Under the pieces are notes generated by a model. The model was not told where the DNA came from. It searched no databases and saw only the letters and a program-made list of their open reading frames with translations. 64,000 nucleotides of DNA from contig NZ_OX216966.1 in assembly GCF_945605565.1 (NCBI RefSeq), positions 2,720,001 to 2,784,000 of the forward strand, read 5' to 3'. The DNA is from Paenibacillus dendritiformis. Its GTDB lineage: Bacteria; Bacillota; Bacilli; Paenibacillales; Paenibacillaceae. The position numbers and the translations under genes are program-made. This document shows positions 6,175-18,817 of this stretch, piece by piece. Position 1 is the first letter of the stretch; every line of letters begins with the position of its first letter.

Positions 6175-7482
6175 ATGTTCCGCACGGTCAATGTTGCCAA
6201 ATGGAAGCAGAAATGGATGCAGACGCTGCTCATGGGACGCACATTTCTGCTATTATCGATTGCTTCTGCCATGTTTTTTATCGTGCTTGGCCTGGGAGGG
6301 TTGCTAGAACAGAAATTGGAGTCATCGCCGCTTGCTTCGATGAAAGGAGTCGCTGCTCAGCTGTCCAGCCGCATTTTTGTCGATATGCTTGCGATGGAAA
6401 TGCCGAATCTGCCCTCCGGAGAGGGAGAATCTTCCCTTACCCGGACACAGATTGCCCAATTCCTCGTACAGATGGCAACCAATGTGAATCCGCTTGATCC
6501 GAAATCACTGCTCGCCGGAGAGGTTCCGGGACTGAACAGCGAACAAGCGATTCCGCTCCGGCTAGGCATCGGGAATCAATCCGCCAAGGGGCCGGTTGAT
6601 TATCCTTCGCTTCCGGCGGAATCAACCTTGCCGGAGCACGGGGGAGAGCCTGCTGACGATTCCGGCGGAGCGGCTCCGCCGCAGACGGAGACCGTGCAGC
6701 CGCAGACTCCGCCGGATTCGGAACGAAGCGGGCCAAGCTCCAATCTGAAAGATTATGTCTTTATCTATCATTCCCATAACCGGGAGTCGTGGAACCCGGA
6801 ATTGAAGAAGGAGAGCACCAACCCGAACGACCCTAAAATCAACGTGACGCTGGTCGGGAAGCATTTGCAGAAGGAACTGCAGAAGAGAGGGATCGGAGCC
6901 GTTCATTCCAACCAGGACTATTCGTCAACGATCAAAGGGTATAGCTGGAACTATTCCTACAAATACTCGAAGCAAACGGTAAAGCAGGCGATGGCAGCGC
7001 ATCAGGATCTCCAGTTTTTCTTCGACATTCACCGGGACGCGCTGCGCCGCAAAGATTCGACGGTCGAGATTGACGGAACTTCTTATGCCCAAGTTTATTT
7101 TGTCATCGGCCGCGCCAATCCCGAATGGAGAGAGAACGAGAAGTTCGCCAAGGAGATTCATGACCGGCTGGAGAAGAAGTACCCCGGCATTTCAAGAGGA
7201 ATCTGGGGCAAGTCGACGGCGCAGGGGAACGGAGAATACAACCAATCGTTGTCGCCGAACAGTGTAATTATGGAGATCGGGGGGATCGACAATACGCTGG
7301 AGGAAAATTACCGGACCGCAGAGGTGCTGGCGGAGCTGATTGCCGAGATCGTGCGCGAGAAGACGAACGCGAAGCAGGTGATGAAGCCCGAGCAGAAGGA
7401 ACGGAAGCGTCAGGCGTCGGGCCAAGCGCCCGAACGGAATACGGCCAGCCGAAAGAACGCTCAGCCGGCGGCCAATGGGTAA
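6175..7482 (+). CDS. spoIIP: Stage II sporulation protein P
   Basis: Cell-wall hydrolase of the SpoIIDMP engulfment complex; family members have amidase and endopeptidase activity at the septum of the sporangium. The 435-residue product has an N-terminal membrane segment (about 24-44), a Pro/Gly-rich linker (about 145-185) and the catalytic domain beginning with the signature VFIYHSHNRESW, with His199 and His201 as likely metal ligands and FFDIHRDA further on. GGAGGG lies ahead of the ATG. It heads the spoIIP-yqxA-lepA order shared with Bacillus, where it is sigma-E dependent. The C-terminal 40 residues are basic and low-complexity. Confidence 0.96.
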   Translation: MFRTVNVAKWKQKWMQTLLMGRTFLLLSIASAMFFIVLGLGGLLEQKLESSPLASMKGVAAQLSSRIFVDMLAMEMPNLPSGEGESSLTRTQIAQFLVQMATNVNPLDPKSLLAGEVPGLNSEQAIPLRLGIGNQSAKGPVDYPSLPAESTLPEHGGEPADDSGGAAPPQTETVQPQTPPDSERSGPSSNLKDYVFIYHSHNRESWNPELKKESTNPNDPKINVTLVGKHLQKELQKRGIGAVHSNQDYSSTIKGYSWNYSYKYSKQTVKQAMAAHQDLQFFFDIHRDALRRKDSTVEIDGTSYAQVYFVIGRANPEWRENEKFAKEIHDRLEKKYPGISRGIWGKSTAQGNGEYNQSLSPNSVIMEIGGIDNTLEENYRTAEVLAELIAEIVREKTNAKQVMKPEQKERKRQASGQAPERNTASRKNAQPAANG

Positions 7483-7546
7483 GGAGCTGGAACGGCTTGG
7501 ACGGATGGGCCGGCCGATGGAAGAATGAGAGAAGGAGGCTACCGCT

Positions 7547-7951
7547 ATGTCCCGCTTCGCGAAGCAGGTTGTAGGCATGATGGTTCTGTTGGTTGTCGGC
7601 GTCTTCATTGGAATGGAGGTGACCTCCGTCAGCATCGAGCGGATATACGGTCCGGTCGATGCGAACCGAAGCTCCGTCCCCGCCGATTCGGCCTGGCCTG
7701 AACGGCCCGATCAGGAGCCGCTTGCGAGCCGGCCGGCCGAACCGGCGCCCGAGCAGGGCGGGGAAGCAGCGGCTCCGGACCATCCCGCGCGGGAATGGCC
7801 GCCGGAAGCCGCACTGCCGCCGGCGTCGGGGCTTCCGCCTGTCGAGGATGCGGCGGTCAACAAGCTGGCCGATCAGACGGCTGGCTTGCTGCAGACTTTA
7901 TCGCAAGCGGGCATCCGCGCCGTCGTCGGCTTGTTCGACGGATTATTTTGA
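7547..7951 (+). CDS. yqxA: YqxA-like membrane protein (DUF3679)
   Basis: 134-residue protein of unknown function with one N-terminal transmembrane segment (about 7-27, MMVLLVVGVFIGMEV) and the family-like SVSIERIYGP stretch just outside it. A Pro/Ala/Glu-rich linker and a short C-terminal amphipathic region follow. Assignment rests mainly on position: a DUF3679 gene sits between spoIIP and lepA in Bacillus. The start has AGAAGGAGG at good spacing. The linker is longer and more GC-rich than in Bacillus. Confidence 0.75.
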   Translation: MSRFAKQVVGMMVLLVVGVFIGMEVTSVSIERIYGPVDANRSSVPADSAWPERPDQEPLASRPAEPAPEQGGEAAAPDHPAREWPPEAALPPASGLPPVEDAAVNKLADQTAGLLQTLSQAGIRAVVGLFDGLF

Positions 7952-8010
7952 CGAACGAGGGCCTGGAATCGGTCTTTTTTCGACGCCGCGGGCCCATAAT
8001 CGCCTTTTTA

Positions 8011-8039
8011 TTGCTGTTCCCCCCTCAATCCGTTATAAT
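8011..8039 (+). promoter_or_regulatory. Sigma-A-type promoter for lepA
   Basis: TTGCTG at 8011-8016 and TATAAT at 8034-8039 with a 17-bp spacer, 45 bp before the lepA start. This gives lepA its own vegetative promoter, separate from the sporulation genes upstream. Confidence 0.7.
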
Positions 8040-8083
8040 GAATGAATTGAAACTTGGCTTAGTGGTGGGGGTATGGAATACGA

Positions 8084-9904
8084 ATGACGGAATTGCTGTC
8101 ACGACAAAAGAAGATTCGGAATTTTTGTATTATTGCGCATATTGACCACGGCAAGTCAACGCTTGCTGACCGGATTCTTGAATATACGGGAGCGCTGGCC
8201 GCCCGGGAAATGCAGTCACAGGTCCTTGACAAAATGGATCTGGAGCGGGAGCGGGGAATTACGATCAAGCTCCAGGCGGTCCGCCTGAACTACAAGGCGG
8301 ATGACGGAGAAGAGTACATTCTGAACTTGATCGATACTCCGGGCCACGTGGACTTCACGTATGAAGTGTCGCGGAGCTTGGCGGCCTGCGAAGGCGCGCT
8401 GCTTGTCGTTGATGCGGCGCAGGGCATTGAAGCGCAGACACTGGCGAATGTCTATCTCGCGCTGGACAACAACCTGGAGATTCTCCCGGTCATCAACAAG
8501 ATTGACCTGCCAAGCGCTGAACCGGACCGCGTCAAGCAAGAGATCGAGGACGTAATCGGTCTCGATTGCTCGAATGCGGTGCTGGCTTCCGCCAAAGCAG
8601 GGATCGGCATCCGCGAGATTCTCGAGCAGATTGTGAAGGAAGTGCCGGCGCCGACCGGGGATCCGGAGGAACCGCTGAAGGCGCTCATCTTCGATTCCCA
8701 TTATGATCCGTACAAAGGCGTCATCGTCTATGTCCGTGTCGTCAACGGTTCCATCCGCGCGGGCAGCAAGATTAAGATGATGGCTACGAACAAGACGTTC
8801 GAAGTTATTGAGGTGGGTGCGTTCAAGCCCCGCATGACGATCATCGACGAGCTGAACGTAGGCGATGTCGGCTTCGTCGTCGCCGGCATCAAAAATGTAG
8901 GCGACACTCGCGTCGGGGATACGATCACCGATGCGAAGCGTCCGACCGCGGAACCGCTCCCGGGGTACCGCCGCATCAACCCGATGGTATTCTGCGGACT
9001 GTATCCGATTGATACGTCGGACTACAATGATTTGCGTGAAGCGCTGGAGAAGCTGCAGCTGAATGACGCTTCGCTCTCCTTCGAGCCGGAGACCTCGTCG
9101 GCGCTCGGCTTCGGCTTCCGCTGTGGCTTCCTCGGCTTGCTCCACATGGAGATTATTCAGGAGCGCATCGAGCGCGAATTCAATATTCCGCTCATTACGA
9201 CGGCGCCAAGCGTTATTTATCATGTGACGCTGACGAGCGGAGAGACGCTGACGATCGACAACCCGTCGAACTACCCGGATCAGAGCAAGCTCGACTACGT
9301 CGAGGAGCCATACGTCAAGGCGTCCATCATCGTTCCGAACGATTTCGTCGGCGCGATTATGGAGCTGTGCCAGGGTAAGCGCGGCGAATTCGTAGATATG
9401 CAATATCTCGACACGACCCGGGTTACGATTACGTACCAGATTCCGCTGTCCGAGATCGTATACGATTTCTTCGATCAGCTGAAGTCAAGCACGCGCGGTT
9501 ATGCCTCGTTCGATTACGAGCTGTCGGGATACCGCAAATCGAACCTCGTCAAGATGGACATTTTGCTCAACAACGAGCAGGTCGATGCCTTGTCGATCAT
9601 CGTGCATAAGGATCGGGCGTACCATCGGGGCAAGCTGCTGTGCGAGAAGCTGCGCGAGCTGATACCGCGCCAGATGTTCGAAGTGCCGGTCCAGGCGGCC
9701 ATCGGAACAAAGATCGTCGCTCGCGAGACGGTCAAGGCGATGCGCAAGAACGTATTGGCCAAATGTTACGGGGGGGACATCTCCCGGAAGCGGAAGCTGC
9801 TGGAGAAGCAGAAGGAAGGCAAAAAGCGAATGAAGCAGGTCGGCAGCGTGGAAGTGCCTCAGGAAGCGTTCATGGCCGTGCTCAAAATTGATGATAGTAA
9901 GTAG
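8084..9904 (+). CDS. lepA: Elongation factor 4 (LepA)
   Basis: Ribosome-associated GTPase of the EF-G superfamily that acts on stalled or mistranslocated ribosomes. The 606-residue length is normal. GTPase motifs are present: AHIDHGKST (P-loop), DTPGHVDF (G3) and NKIDLP (G4). The specific C-terminal domain is complete, with [24 protein letters not shown] sequence near residues 555-575. There is no EF-G domain IV, which separates it from FusA. The Shine-Dalgarno match (GGTGGGGG) is rather far from the ATG, but no better in-frame start exists. An intrinsic terminator follows immediately. Confidence 0.98.
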
Positions 9905-12218: not shown

Positions 12219-12248
12219 TTGACAATCGTCTTGTCCGTTTGGTATTTT
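12219..12248 (+). promoter_or_regulatory. Heat-shock operon promoter
   Basis: TTGACA at 12219-12224 and TATTTT at 12243-12248 with an 18-bp spacer, starting 2 bp after the acetyltransferase stop. CIRCE follows at the expected transcription start. Confidence 0.8.
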
Positions 12249-12259
12249 TGTAGTGACGG

Positions 12260-12286
12260 TTAGCACTCGACGATGATGAGTGCTAA
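12260..12286. promoter_or_regulatory. CIRCE operator
   Basis: Perfect consensus TTAGCACTC-N9-GAGTGCTAA, the HrcA binding site. It overlaps the predicted start of transcription of the hrcA operon, so HrcA would repress its own operon, with relief on heat shock. Confidence 0.99.
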
Positions 12287-12319
12287 CGGATATCCTACTA
12301 CATCTAAGGAGGGATGCGC

Positions 12320-13348
12320 ATGTTGACGGAACGCCAGCGTATGATTTTGAATGCCATCATTGATGATTATATCCGTTCTGCGGAGCCTGTCGGATCTCGC
12401 AGCATTTCGAAGCGGGGCGACGTGAATTTCAGCCCGGCTACGATTCGCAACGAGATGGCCGATCTGGAAGAGCTCGGATATCTGGAGCAGCCGCACACGT
12501 CAGCAGGGCGCATTCCATCTCATAAAGGGTACCGTTATTATGTCGATCATCTCGTTCGTCTTGATCGCCTGTCCAGCGAAGACGTCATGCGGTTGAAATC
12601 CGTCTTCGCGGAGAAGATAACAGCGATGGAAGAGATTGTGCAGCATACGGCATCGATTTTGTCTCAATTGACCAATTATACGTCAATCGCGCTGGGGCCG
12701 GAAGTTTTCGACGCCTCGCTTCGTCATTTTCAGCTGCTGCCGCTGAACGAGAATACGGCGGTCGCGATAGTCGTGACGAGCACGGGCCATGTCGAGAACA
12801 AGACCGTCACGCTGCCGGAGGGCGTCTCCGCCTCCGAGCTGGAGACCGTGGTCAACCTGCTGAACGCGAAGCTTGTCGGCGTTCCTCTATATAAACTGCG
12901 CGCGCAGCTGTATAACGAGATTGGACAGGAAATGAGCCAATATGTGTCGCATGTTCAGGAGCTGATGGCGCTCGTGGAAGGCGTCTTGGCCGACAATAAC
13001 GACCATCGGCAAGTCTATTTGAGCGGGGCCACGAACATGCTGATCCAGCCTGAATTCCAGGATGTCGACAAGATTAAGACGATCTGGGAGCTGCTCGAAG
13101 AGACGCCGGCCTTGATCAAGGTCGTGGGCTCTGCCCCTTCCGGCATCCAGGTCCGCATCGGCCAAGAGAATGCGCATGCCGCGATTACGAACTGCAGCAT
13201 GATTACCGCAACCTATTCGGTCGACGGACAGACGCTGGGTACGGTCGGCATCCTGGGGCCGACCCGGATGGAGTATGCGAAGGTCATCACATTGATGAAC
13301 CATCTGTCCGGTCAAATGGCGTTATTCATGCATCAATGGTATAAATAA
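12320..13348 (+). CDS. hrcA: Heat-inducible transcription repressor HrcA
   Basis: Represses CIRCE-controlled operons; in Bacillus its activity depends on the GroE chaperonin. The 342-residue product has the N-terminal winged helix (about 1-75, with ATIRNEMADLEELGYLEQPHTSAGRIP) and the GAF-like and dimerisation domains, ending with the VGILGPTRMEYAKVI family motif. An ATG at 12314 is in frame, but it touches the AAGGAGGG Shine-Dalgarno sequence; the ATG at 12320 is properly spaced and gives the usual MLTERQR start. It is the first gene of the operon and 17 bp from the chaperonin gene. Confidence 0.97.
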   Translation: MLTERQRMILNAIIDDYIRSAEPVGSRSISKRGDVNFSPATIRNEMADLEELGYLEQPHTSAGRIPSHKGYRYYVDHLVRLDRLSSEDVMRLKSVFAEKITAMEEIVQHTASILSQLTNYTSIALGPEVFDASLRHFQLLPLNENTAVAIVVTSTGHVENKTVTLPEGVSASELETVVNLLNAKLVGVPLYKLRAQLYNEIGQEMSQYVSHVQELMALVEGVLADNNDHRQVYLSGATNMLIQPEFQDVDKIKTIWELLEETPALIKVVGSAPSGIQVRIGQENAHAAITNCSMITATYSVDGQTLGTVGILGPTRMEYAKVITLMNHLSGQMALFMHQWYK

Positions 13349-13365
13349 GCGGGAGGGGGCGGCTT

Positions 13366-14949
13366 GTGACTCAAGGACAAGGACAAGTACAGGAGACCGA
13401 TGAGCGCTATGCGACGCTCCTGAATAATGCCAATGCCGTCCGGGCGCTCAGCTCGGCTGTCGAGGGCACGCTTGGCCCGAAGGGGCTGGACGTCATGCTG
13501 GTCGGCGCCAATGGCGACGTCGTCATTACCAATGACGGCGTCACCATTTTGGAGAAAATGGATGTGAGCCATCCAGCAGCCCGGCTGCTCATCCAGGTGG
13601 CGCGCGCCCAGCAGAGCGAAGTCGGCGACGGCACGACGACGGCGACGGTACTGGCCGGTGCGCTTGTGCAAGAAGGCGTCGCCCAGGTGACGAGAGGCGT
13701 GCCCGCGGCGAAGGTCGTGACCGGGATGCTCGAGGGCATCCGTGTCGCGTCAGACCGGCTGGCGGAACGCGCGCTTCGGCTCGATGGCTGGAGCGACCCG
13801 AAGCTGCACCGCGCGGTACATATCGCAGGCCGGGAGCAGGCAGACATCGTCCGCCTTGTGCTGGAGGCGGGACAGGCGGTAGGCTGGGAGCAGCTGCAGG
13901 ATCCGGCCTACCGGCTCGCCGAACAGATTGTCGCGCACGAGAAGGCGAGCAATGAATGGTTCCACGGCGTGCTCCTGAAGCAAAAGCCGCTGCAGCGGGA
14001 CTGGCTGCCGGAACGGACCGGCTGCCGCGTTCTCATCCTGCAGGATGCGCTCGAACCGGACACGCTCGACGAGCAGCTGCTGACGACCGAAGCCGGCTTC
14101 CAGCAGTATATGGCTCACCGTTCTGCCTTCATGGACCGGCTGCAGCGTCTTCACGAGCTGGGGGTCGGCTTCCTGGTGCTGGAGCGGGGCCTTCATCCGG
14201 AAGCGGAGCAATTTTGTCTCGACCATGATATGATGGTCGTGCAGCGGGTCAGCCGCGAAGACATTATGCGCGTCTGCCGCCTTACGGGCGGCAAGCCGTT
14301 GAAGCGCGCCGCCCTGTCCAAGGATGCGGCGGTGCTGGAGCCGCTGCTCGGCCGCACCGCCTGCGTGCGCTACGATGAGCGCCTGGAGCGCGTGCGGCTG
14401 TACGCCCCGCAGATGGCGCTCAGCTCTGCCGGCTCGGGCGGCACGCCGGAGCCGGCGGGCATGCGCCGCGGTCAGGTGACGCTCATCGTGGGCGCGAGCA
14501 CGCGCGAGGTCGTGGGCGAGCGGGCGCGCATCGCCCAAGATGCCGCCGCGGCGCTGCAAGCCGCGATCCAGAGCGGCGTTCTGCCGGGCGGCGGCACGAC
14601 GGAGCTGGCGCTCTCCTACATGCTGGAGCGCTACAGGGAGACCGTCCGCGGCATGGAAGCCTTCGGCGTAGCCGCGGTAGCGCAGGCGCTGCGCAAGCCG
14701 ATGGCCCAGATTGTGCTGAACGCCGGCTTCAACCCGCTGGAGAAGCTGGAGGAAGCGCGGGCGGCGCAGACCGCGTCGGCATCCGATGCCATCGGCATTG
14801 ACTGTGACAGCGGAGCGCTGCTTGACTATGTCGACGCAGGCATCGTCGACCCGGCCGCCGTGAAGCTCCACGCGCTGCGGGCGGCCGGCGAAGTGGCCGC
14901 CGCCGTGCTGCGGATTCACACGGTCATTAAGATGAAGCCGGAAGCGTAA
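13366..14949 (+). CDS. Archaeal-type (Group II/III) chaperonin, Cpn60/TCP-1 family
   Basis: 527-residue chaperonin subunit that is not GroEL. ATP-site motifs are present: LGPKG (36-40), NDGVTI (56-61), GDGTTT (87-92), LPGGG (406-410) and DAGIVDP (490-496). The apical region starts FHGVLLKQ near residue 199 and contains a stretch at about 230-266 that aligns by eye with the helical protrusion (built-in lid) of thermosome subunits. This is followed by FLVLERGLHPEAEQF, matching the Group II pattern rather than GroEL, and the GroEL Gly-Met tail is absent. Archaeal-like Group III chaperonins inside dnaK operons are known from Carboxydothermus and some other Firmicutes. The GTG start has GGGAGGGGG ahead of it. 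Client proteins and ring size are unknown. Confidence 0.88.
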   Translation: MTQGQGQVQETDERYATLLNNANAVRALSSAVEGTLGPKGLDVMLVGANGDVVITNDGVTILEKMDVSHPAARLLIQVARAQQSEVGDGTTTATVLAGALVQEGVAQVTRGVPAAKVVTGMLEGIRVASDRLAERALRLDGWSDPKLHRAVHIAGREQADIVRLVLEAGQAVGWEQLQDPAYRLAEQIVAHEKASNEWFHGVLLKQKPLQRDWLPERTGCRVLILQDALEPDTLDEQLLTTEAGFQQYMAHRSAFMDRLQRLHELGVGFLVLERGLHPEAEQFCLDHDMMVVQRVSREDIMRVCRLTGGKPLKRAALSKDAAVLEPLLGRTACVRYDERLERVRLYAPQMALSSAGSGGTPEPAGMRRGQVTLIVGASTREVVGERARIAQDAAAALQAAIQSGVLPGGGTTELALSYMLERYRETVRGMEAFGVAAVAQALRKPMAQIVLNAGFNPLEKLEEARAAQTASASDAIGIDCDSGALLDYVDAGIVDPAAVKLHALRAAGEVAAAVLRIHTVIKMKPEA

Positions 14950-14968
14950 GGCTCCGGCTTCCCGGAGC
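14935..14968 (+). other. Two mutually exclusive hairpins at the chaperonin-grpE junction
   Basis: AAGCCGGA (14935-14942) can pair with TCCGGCTT (14953-14960), or GCTCCGG (14951-14957) with CCGGAGC (14962-14968). The stop codon lies in the first loop. There is no T-run. Such structures can set mRNA ends within heat-shock operons. Confidence 0.4.
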
Positions 14969-15008
14969 AGGAAGATAGAAGCTTGACTACATAAGGGAGG
15001 TGCAAGGA

Positions 15009-15596
15009 TTGAACCCGGAACAAGAAGAGAAGATCGAGAGGAACGATCAGGTGGACTCGGAGGCTGTGGAGACAGCCGACGTTGAACATAATCAGGAGGC
15101 CGAGGAGACATCCGAGGCAGAAGGAAAGGCAGCAGAGGAAGCACAGGGGGCAGGGCTGAAGGAGGCCCGCGCGCAAGCGGAGGAGCTTCAGCAGCGCCTG
15201 CTGCGTGCCCAGGCGGACTTCGATAATTTCCGCCGCCGTACGGTGAAGGAGAAGGAAGAACTGGCGCAGTACGCATCGTCCAAGCTGGTGACCGAGCTGC
15301 TTCCGGTGCTCGATAACTTCGAGCGCGCCTTGGCCGCAGCGCAGACGGGCAGCGAGGAGCAATCGTTCGTCAAAGGCGTGGACATGATCTTCCGCCAATT
15401 CATGCAGGTGCTGGAGCAGGAAGGCGTGAAGGCGATGAACGCCGTGGGCGAGCCTTTCAACCCGGAATTCCATCAGGCGATTATGCAGGTGGAGTCGGAG
15501 GAGCATGAGGAAGGCATCGTCGTGGAAGAAGTCCAAAAAGGCTATATGCTCAAGGATCGGGTGCTTCGCCCGGCCATGGTCAAGGTAAGCGGCTAA
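15009..15596 (+). CDS. grpE: Nucleotide exchange factor GrpE
   Basis: ADP-release factor for DnaK. 195 residues: an acidic, Glu/Ala-rich N-terminal tail, the long coiled-coil helix (about 45-95, with LRAQADFDNFRRR) and the C-terminal beta domain ending in GYMLKDRVLRPAMVKVS. A GTG at 15000 is in frame but sits inside the AAGGGAGGTG Shine-Dalgarno sequence; the TTG at 15009 is correctly spaced, so I place the start there. Confidence 0.95.
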   Translation: MNPEQEEKIERNDQVDSEAVETADVEHNQEAEETSEAEGKAAEEAQGAGLKEARAQAEELQQRLLRAQADFDNFRRRTVKEKEELAQYASSKLVTELLPVLDNFERALAAAQTGSEEQSFVKGVDMIFRQFMQVLEQEGVKAMNAVGEPFNPEFHQAIMQVESEEHEEGIVVEEVQKGYMLKDRVLRPAMVKVSG

Positions 15597-15644
15597 GAGA
15601 TGGCGTTCACATGCTATCCGCTTGGTTAATATGAAATAGATTGA

Positions 15645-17507
<1,863 letters not shown>

Positions 17508-17525
17508 GCGCGGATGGACAGGGTC

Positions 17526-17548
17526 AAAGCCGGGTTTCACCCGGCTTT
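17526..17548 (+). other. Strong hairpin between dnaK and dnaJ
   Basis: AAAGCCGGGT-TTC-ACCCGGCTTT, a 10-bp perfect stem. The following GGCTTTGCCTGTTT is not a clean T-run, so it may act as a partial terminator or mRNA stabiliser that raises DnaK over DnaJ. Confidence 0.55.
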
Positions 17549-17692
17549 GGCTTTGCCTGTTTACAATGAAGAATGCGGGACAGCACGGCGTTCGCGCCGT
17601 GATGCATCAACCCGGCAACCGATCCGTTCTGACGGCACACGGTGGAGCGGATGCATGGAACCGGGCTTTCAAGTTGCAATGGGGGTGGAAGA

Positions 17693-18817
17693 GTGGCGCA
17701 AAAGCGAGATTATTATGAAGTGCTCGGCGTAAGCAAAGGAGCAGGCGAGGATGAAATCAAAAAAGCCTACCGCAAGCTTGCGCGTCAATATCACCCTGAC
17801 GTGAACAAGGCAGCGGACGCGGAAGAGAAGTTCAAGGAAGTCAAGGAAGCGTACGATGTGCTTGGGGACGATCAGAAGCGGGCGATGTATGACCAGTACG
17901 GGCATGTAGATCCGAATCAAGGCATGGGCGGAGGCGGGTTCTCCGGCGATTTCGGCGGATTCGGCGATATATTCGATATGTTCTTCGGCGGAGGAGGACG
18001 CACCCGCGATCCGAATGCGCCGCAGCGAGGCAGCGATCTGCAGTACACGATGCAGATTGAATTCAAGGAAGCCGTCTTCGGCAAAGAGACGGATATTACG
18101 ATTCCGCGGACAGAGCAGTGCGACACTTGCTTCGGAACCGGAGCCAAGCCTGGCACGAAGCCGGATACCTGCTCGGCCTGCCACGGATCGGGACAACAGG
18201 AAGTCGTGCAAAATACGGCGTTCGGCCGCATGGTCAACCGGCGTACTTGTACGGTATGTCAAGGCAAGGGCAAAATTATCCGCGAGAAATGCGGCACCTG
18301 CCATGGCAGTGGAACCGTGAAGAAGCAGCGCGTCATTCATGTGCGCATTCCGGCAGGGGTAGACGATGGAGCCCAACTTCGCATGAGCGGAGAAGGCGAG
18401 AGCGGATTGCGCGGCGGTCCGAACGGCGATTTGTACATTGTCATCCGCGTGAAGCCGCATGAATTTTTCGAACGCGACGGCGACGATATCTACTGCGAGG
18501 TGCCGCTCACATTCGCTCAGGCGGCGCTCGGCGACGAGATTGAGATCCCGACGCTGACGGAGAAGGTCAAGCTCAAAATTCCGGCCGGCACGCAGACAGG
18601 AACCTTCTTCCGACTGCGCGGCAAAGGCGTTCCGCGTCTGCGGGGCCACGGACAAGGCGATCAGCATGTCAAGGTTGTCATCGTGACGCCGACGAAGCTG
18701 AATGACGAACAGAAAGAGCTGCTCCGACAGTTCGCGGCGAGCGGCGGCGAGCACACGAACGGCGGGCACGAGGAATCGTTCTTCGATCGGATGAAGCGGG
18801 CGTTCCGGGGAGACTAG
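17693..18817 (+). CDS. dnaJ: Chaperone protein DnaJ
   Basis: Type I Hsp40 of 374 residues that stimulates DnaK ATPase and delivers substrates. The J domain has the HPD motif (His34-Pro35-Asp36). A Gly/Phe-rich linker and four CxxCxGxG zinc repeats ([32 protein letters not shown]) follow, then the substrate-binding C-terminal domains. The GTG at 17693 gives [13 protein letters not shown], the normal DnaJ N-terminus. An open extension 17 codons further upstream has no homology and is ignored. This is the last gene of the operon; a terminator follows. Confidence 0.98.

Follow-up and report, generated by a model that had tools for sequence, protein, structure and literature searches.

What does a chaperonin of archaeal type do in the heat-shock operon of a bacterium, and does it replace, supplement, or compete with GroEL? 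The question is raised by the window, i.e., the whole 64,000-nucleotide stretch analysed here (bases 2720001-2784000 of a genome of 6.72 Mb on one contig), in which positions 12219-18817 hold, in order and all on the + strand, a promoter-like site, the operator CIRCE (controlling inverted repeat of chaperone expression), hrcA, a chaperonin gene, grpE, dnaK, and dnaJ. The order from CIRCE to dnaJ, with its coordinates, had been proposed in a sequence-only reading of the window and was right, as judged from the open reading frames (ORFs), a perfect CIRCE, and the family models. We read the protein as an accessory Group III chaperonin that is controlled by CIRCE and HrcA together with Hsp70, works beside GroEL, and has come down with the operon by descent, with several losses on the way; we give this reading a probability of roughly 85%.

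The class of the chaperonin

The chaperonin gene (13366-14949, + strand), identified by family models, tree, alignment, and structure model, starts with a GTG just 3′ of a GGAGG stretch and encodes 527 amino acids, which score 329.8 bits against Cpn60_TCP1 (cut-off 34.3). The MAFFT alignment used to place it has 62 rows, of which 28 are Group III chaperonins, 24 are archaeal thermosomes (Group II), and 10 are GroEL. A quick tree was built from all 62 rows and a careful tree from 33 of them (29 rows left out; 12 of the 24 thermosomes in), and the roots of both were set by hand. The window chaperonin branches in Group III with Ch-CPN, the chaperonin of Carboxydothermus hydrogenoformans (PDB 5x9u and 5x9v), apart from Groups I and II, with a support of 99 in the quick tree and 99/99 in the careful tree, both trees carrying long-branch warnings. 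In both, it lies outside GroEL and outside the archaeal thermosome branch. Groups II and III separate in the trees; the roots being hand-set, the trees do not decide between a relic of a common ancestor and an early archaeal transfer.

The lid region (the columns of residues 222-270) counts 49 residues in 28/28 Group III rows, 53 in 24/24 Group II rows, and 36 in 10/10 GroEL rows. The lid-tip residues L239, F245, Y248, and F255 of the window protein correspond to L237, F243, Y246, and F253 of Ch-CPN, which are kept in 27, 27, 26, and 26 of the 28 Group III rows, respectively. An AlphaFold2 model of the single subunit has lid helices at 236-240 and 242-264 and is closest in structure to a solved Group III chaperonin. 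The corresponding codons (about residues 231-264) lie at 14056-14157 on the + strand, as located by the alignment, the pairwise comparison with Ch-CPN, and the model. The lid segment suspected at about 230-266 in the sequence-only reading is therefore real. That reading had also set two outcomes against itself, a branch inside GroEL and a predicted GroEL-like apical domain with no protrusion; the trees and the model gave neither.

The residues at the nucleotide site point the same way. The gamma-phosphate arginine (R155 in Ch-CPN) is R156 in the window protein, and the catalytic aspartate pair (D56 and D373) is D57 and D392. The R155 column holds arginine in 28/28 Group III rows and in 0/10 GroEL rows, Group II being mixed there in a column that is perhaps misaligned. 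The inter-ring ball residue L439 of Ch-CPN, kept in 28/28 Group III rows, is L458. Since the tree, the lid length, the signature residues, and the AlphaFold2 model agree, the window protein is a Group III chaperonin, neither a GroEL nor an archaeal thermosome.

Its likeness to Ch-CPN has limits: the two proteins share clade, lid residues, and the equivalents of R155, D56, D373, and L439, and the dnaK-operon setting reported for the Ch-CPN group is also that of the window gene, but they are only 42% identical, and the host of Ch-CPN is an extreme thermophile whereas that of the window is a Paenibacillus relative. The socket residues K109 and Y414 of Ch-CPN are R110 and F433 in the window protein. 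Moreover, the latter has about 17 additional residues near 350-366, a loop that is absent from Ch-CPN and varies in length in the near kin L008, L013, and L016; it sits with low confidence at the junction of the apical and intermediate domains (codons 351-366, 14416-14463, + strand; alignment and structure model). Group III is characterised by a hexadecamer of two octameric rings that is closed with ATP and without a co-chaperonin, and the window protein is known from its gene and a one-subunit model. Its closest public counterparts are TCP-1/cpn60 chaperonin family proteins of Paenibacillus, with a P. thiaminolyticus cluster (P0001) 97% and a P. popilliae cluster 94% identical to it.

A recently acquired archaeal thermosome would likewise have a built-in lid and the same overall fold, and the nearest NCBIfam models are those of thermosomes, yet far below the cut-off (243 bits vs 671). 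However, Group III stands as a separate clade, apart from the 24 archaeal thermosomes of the quick tree and the 12 of the careful tree, and the lid region of the window protein is four residues shorter. In addition, a six-residue Group II stretch is missing at the nucleotide-sensing loop, a region of 25 residues in 28/28 Group III rows and 31 in 24/24 Group II rows; this length separates the window chaperonin from Group II only, the 10 GroEL rows having 24. Extracts of PMC5635000 describe the loop as absent from Group III. Thermosomes have a different host and, as a rule, a different operon, whereas the nearest kin of the window protein are Bacilli with the same operon. The plasmid search returned zero Group III hits, and 27/27 plasmid records with a chaperonin match were haloarchaeal. 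We consider such an acquisition very improbable. Plasmid transfer of the Group III gene was also weighed and rejected on these zero hits.

One archaeal locus, L093 (4152-9585; Euryarchaeota archaeon S06.Bin063), carries a thermosome gene, placed in Group II by the quick tree, with grpE, dnaK, and dnaJ after it in the same orientation. It is the only archaeal locus examined with a DnaK match in its flanks (at most 4.5 kb, often shorter), and this cluster may have an origin separate from that of Group III. In PDB entry 9rwq, the molecule name says ACII and the title ACIII; the sequence is Group III-like.

That the protein might be a GroEL paralogue that has diverged but keeps an apical domain like that of GroEL is hardly credible: the chaperonin fold and ATP motifs are indeed common to both, but it branches away from GroEL, its lid region has 49 residues and not 36, and no groES match was found in its operon locus (L007).

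Operator, regulon and GroEL

In Bacillus subtilis, according to extracts of PMC8957991, the dnaK and groE operons are under repression by HrcA, which GroE in turn tunes. In the window, a candidate sigma-A-like promoter (12219-12248, + strand; TTGACA-N18-TATTTT, the second hexamer being preceded by TG) matches the consensus at 10/12 positions, consensus match being its only basis, and lies 11 bases upstream of the CIRCE operator, the HrcA site. This operator (12260-12286, + strand) reads TTAGCACTC-N9-GAGTGCTAA, with 0 mismatches. The repressor gene hrcA (12314-13348, + strand; 344 amino acids) follows, scoring 356.9 bits against TIGR00331 (cut-off 197.2). CIRCE stands close ahead of hrcA in 97/98 loci, 95 times perfect and twice with one mismatch (a few genomes being counted twice). 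The sole exception is L011 of genome G008, where an insertion has moved a perfect CIRCE about 1.8 kb off hrcA. Seen in L282 (7283-9089), this insertion of about 1.8 kb separates the operon of this close relative from its operator and encodes an IS110-type transposase (7451-8695, - strand); upstream of the promoter region there is a second insertion, of about 245 bases. What takes the operon beyond chance is that relatives repeat its gene order together with a CIRCE that is perfect or has one mismatch.

The regulon reaches further. Outside the window, a perfect CIRCE (G000:C1:1766721-1766747; L003 1501-1527) precedes a gene of the same genome that we take, by eye, to be htpG (Hsp90). An htpG match was found in 57/60 relatives, and among the best 30 of these 57 loci, own genome included, 29 are preceded by a CIRCE of no more than one mismatch, 25-132 bases from the start of the match in 28 loci and 505 in one; the remaining locus has a CIRCE with two mismatches. 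Counted per genome, at most one mismatch allowed, CIRCE sites number three in 48/60 relatives, two in 8, and four in 4, whereas the reversed control pattern gave zero sites in 59/60 and one in G052. The HrcA regulon of this order is thus likely made up of the hrcA operon, groESL, and htpG, and from the CIRCE ahead of all three, HrcA probably governs Hsp60, Hsp70, Hsp90, and the Group III chaperonin together. Judging from extracts of PMC8957991, the sites before the hrcA operon and groESL are those of B. subtilis, and the window genome differs in the chaperonin gene of its hrcA operon and in the CIRCE at htpG; for the latter we claim no novelty.

The genome has two PF00118 genes, the window chaperonin and a GroEL of 542 amino acids with a Gly-Met-rich tail. 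The latter lies downstream of groES, and a one-mismatch CIRCE stands about 105 bases ahead of groES, so that the search for groESL and its CIRCE proposed in the sequence-only reading found both. GroEL-type matches are present in 60/60 relatives searched, and GroEL in 60/61 genomes of the class sample that have a Group III match. Because groESL and its CIRCE are present in the window's genome and GroEL accompanies Group III in 60 of these 61, the choice that the earlier reading had offered, to replace, supplement, or compete with GroEL, narrows to supplementing it. Replacement was considered for the one remaining genome, G490, which has no GroEL match, but this is a 360-contig draft of 95% completeness and allows no conclusion.

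Distribution, inheritance and loss

Group III chaperonins had been taken, in the sequence-only reading, as established in the dnaK operons of Carboxydothermus and a few other Firmicutes. The setting holds, but "few" does not: at a threshold of E 1e-30, a Group III match is present in 58/394 genomes of the family; in the class it is found in 61/398 genomes and 38/146 genera; and PMC5635000 (2017), in extract, counts 195 Group III sequences, one exception aside all in dnaK operons. "Paenibacillus" does not occur in the main text of that paper, as far as the extracts go, and no study of a Group III chaperonin in Paenibacillus was found in the open-licence PubMed Central literature. The kind of protein, its operon setting (PMC5635000, extracts), and the public annotation of Paenibacillus copies are thus already known; what is added here is its scattered occurrence at a single site in genomes that retain GroEL.

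Gene order was read in the best-scoring loci, which are not a random draw (30 of the 58 positive family genomes and 20 of the 61 class genomes, one being the window's own). The order hrcA, chaperonin, grpE, dnaK is found in 49/49 loci (L007-L055) and in 7/8 Group III loci from named genomes (L056-L060, L129, and L130), with L061 stopping inside the gene. In L129 (4501-5969; Desulforamulus aquiferis), the chaperonin match is in pieces, perhaps from a frame break or a draft error. Among 60 relatives, 27 have the gene or its remains: 19/19 in the genus, 3/18 in other genera of the family, and 5/23 in other families of the order. The gene lies directly 3′ of hrcA in 27/27 carriers and is followed by grpE in 26/27, L186 stopping too early. 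The 33/33 relatives that lack it have hrcA then grpE with nothing chaperonin-like between; where the gap was measured (25 relatives), it is estimated at -5 to 374 bases.

On a tree of the joined HrcA, GrpE, and DnaK pieces of these 60 relatives, with two broken copies scored as present, presence and absence need at least six changes, three of them forced by well-supported branches. Both broken copies are still beside hrcA: that of G011 (L211) is split, its two frames overlapping, and of that of G041 (L191) two separated pieces are left. Change counts of this kind cannot separate gain from loss; repeated loss is the direction we favour, because the site is identical and broken copies are present. 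With at least six changes and two broken copies, the chaperonin looks dispensable and repeatedly lost. In the draft genome G017 (L212) it is hrcA whose match is interrupted, near residue 100, and the chaperonin gene is unbroken; a sequencing error is possible.

Might the chaperonin then be a relic on its way out that is no longer useful? The 336/394 family genomes with no match, the split in G011, and the remnant in G041 would fit. Against this, the gene is unbroken in 18/19 genomes of the genus, the catalytic and lid residues are kept, and the ratio of nonsynonymous to synonymous substitution rates (dN/dS) is 0.034-0.136 in 10/10 pairs. By these ratios the intact chaperonin is under purifying selection, and we find a relic improbable.

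Chaperonin distances track those of HrcA (Spearman 0.83 over 57 loci; 0/500 permutations as high), and correlate with DnaK at 0.76 and GrpE at 0.71; L015, L212, L191, L211, L129, and L061 were left out for split, broken, or cut genes. This is as expected from inheritance with the operon.

The remaining genes of the operon, all on the + strand and taken from the ORF list and family models, are grpE (15000-15596; 198 amino acids), dnaK (15672-17507; 611 amino acids), and dnaJ (17693-18817). The HrcA, GrpE, Hsp70, and DnaJ models each score above the Pfam cut-off. For dnaJ, the listed start (17642) is probably 17 codons too early and GTG 17693 likelier, because the model matches start at residues 19-23 of the listed ORF. 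Large minus-strand ORFs (e.g., 13750-15276) overlap the operon genes and were set aside. Between 12100 and 19100, the + strand gave no terminator-like site; the two hits in this stretch are on the - strand. An RNA hairpin spans the stop codon of the chaperonin gene (14934-14961, + strand; -21.1 kcal/mol and z -4.0 for a 55-base piece). It was considered as a conserved processing site and rejected: in 22 loci tested it is strong in the closest kin only (L007-L012, z -2.8 to -4.4) and lost in more distant ones, and so is no general feature. A different hairpin is seen in L028 (z -2.8). No known structured RNA reached the gathering threshold in L003, L005, L007, or L163.

The place of the chaperonin in the cell

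We propose that the thermosome-like subunit, with its built-in helical lid, assembles into an ATP-driven, GroES-independent double ring. Transcription from a promoter of vegetative type, repressed by HrcA at CIRCE, would couple it to hrcA, grpE, dnaK, and dnaJ; with promoter and repression in common, it would rise with Hsp70 under heat or folding stress. The ring may serve as an accessory folding chamber beside GroEL/GroES, its clients most likely handed on by DnaK. Hand-over from DnaK to Group III is a hypothesis of PMC5635000 and PMC5220055, drawn from the operon position in the extracts cited, the latter of which also state that bacteria are said to lack prefoldin. The chaperonin gene would have been passed on as part of the operon and have dropped out on several occasions, HrcA/CIRCE and GroEL being retained.

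Several points weigh against this picture. Group I is attached to the other groups by a long branch, the row of Ch-CPN is long as well, the bootstrap of the slower tree was unsettled, and the structural evidence is a single-subunit model. Ring assembly and heat induction are what we infer, and the hand-over is taken from the operon position and from what those two papers, in extract, hypothesise. Finally, the position beside hrcA in every locus read could also mean a link to HrcA.

Such a link could make the chaperonin mainly a second HrcA sensor that binds and matures the repressor as GroE does in B. subtilis, with adjacency keeping the proportions. Its place directly downstream of hrcA in all 49 loci and the correlated distances would suit this, but joint inheritance alone predicts such a correlation (HrcA-DnaK reaches 0.84), and 33/33 relatives without the chaperonin keep hrcA, a CIRCE with at most one mismatch, and a GroEL-type match. 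We therefore hold a mainly sensory role to be unlikely. GroEL is most likely the main modulator of HrcA, because the losses of the chaperonin left HrcA/CIRCE and GroEL in place; a part for the Group III chaperonin in HrcA control is possible but, given those 33 relatives, would not be needed or essential. A bolder and unlikely version makes it a second, Hsp70-linked modulator in these Bacilli: one repressor would read the load of two chaperonins and set Hsp60, Hsp70, Hsp90, and Group III, and lineages that lost the gene would have fallen back to feedback by GroE only.

As an accessory chaperonin beside GroEL, the protein extends a group that, in extracts of the literature cited, has been studied in one extreme thermophile and one reconstructed ancestor. 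The gene stands beside hrcA in a good part of the sampled Bacilli, and because many close relatives of its carriers are without it, nature offers with/without pairs. These make it testable what a thermosome-type chaperonin does beside GroEL, and whether its clients come from DnaK or its contact is with HrcA.

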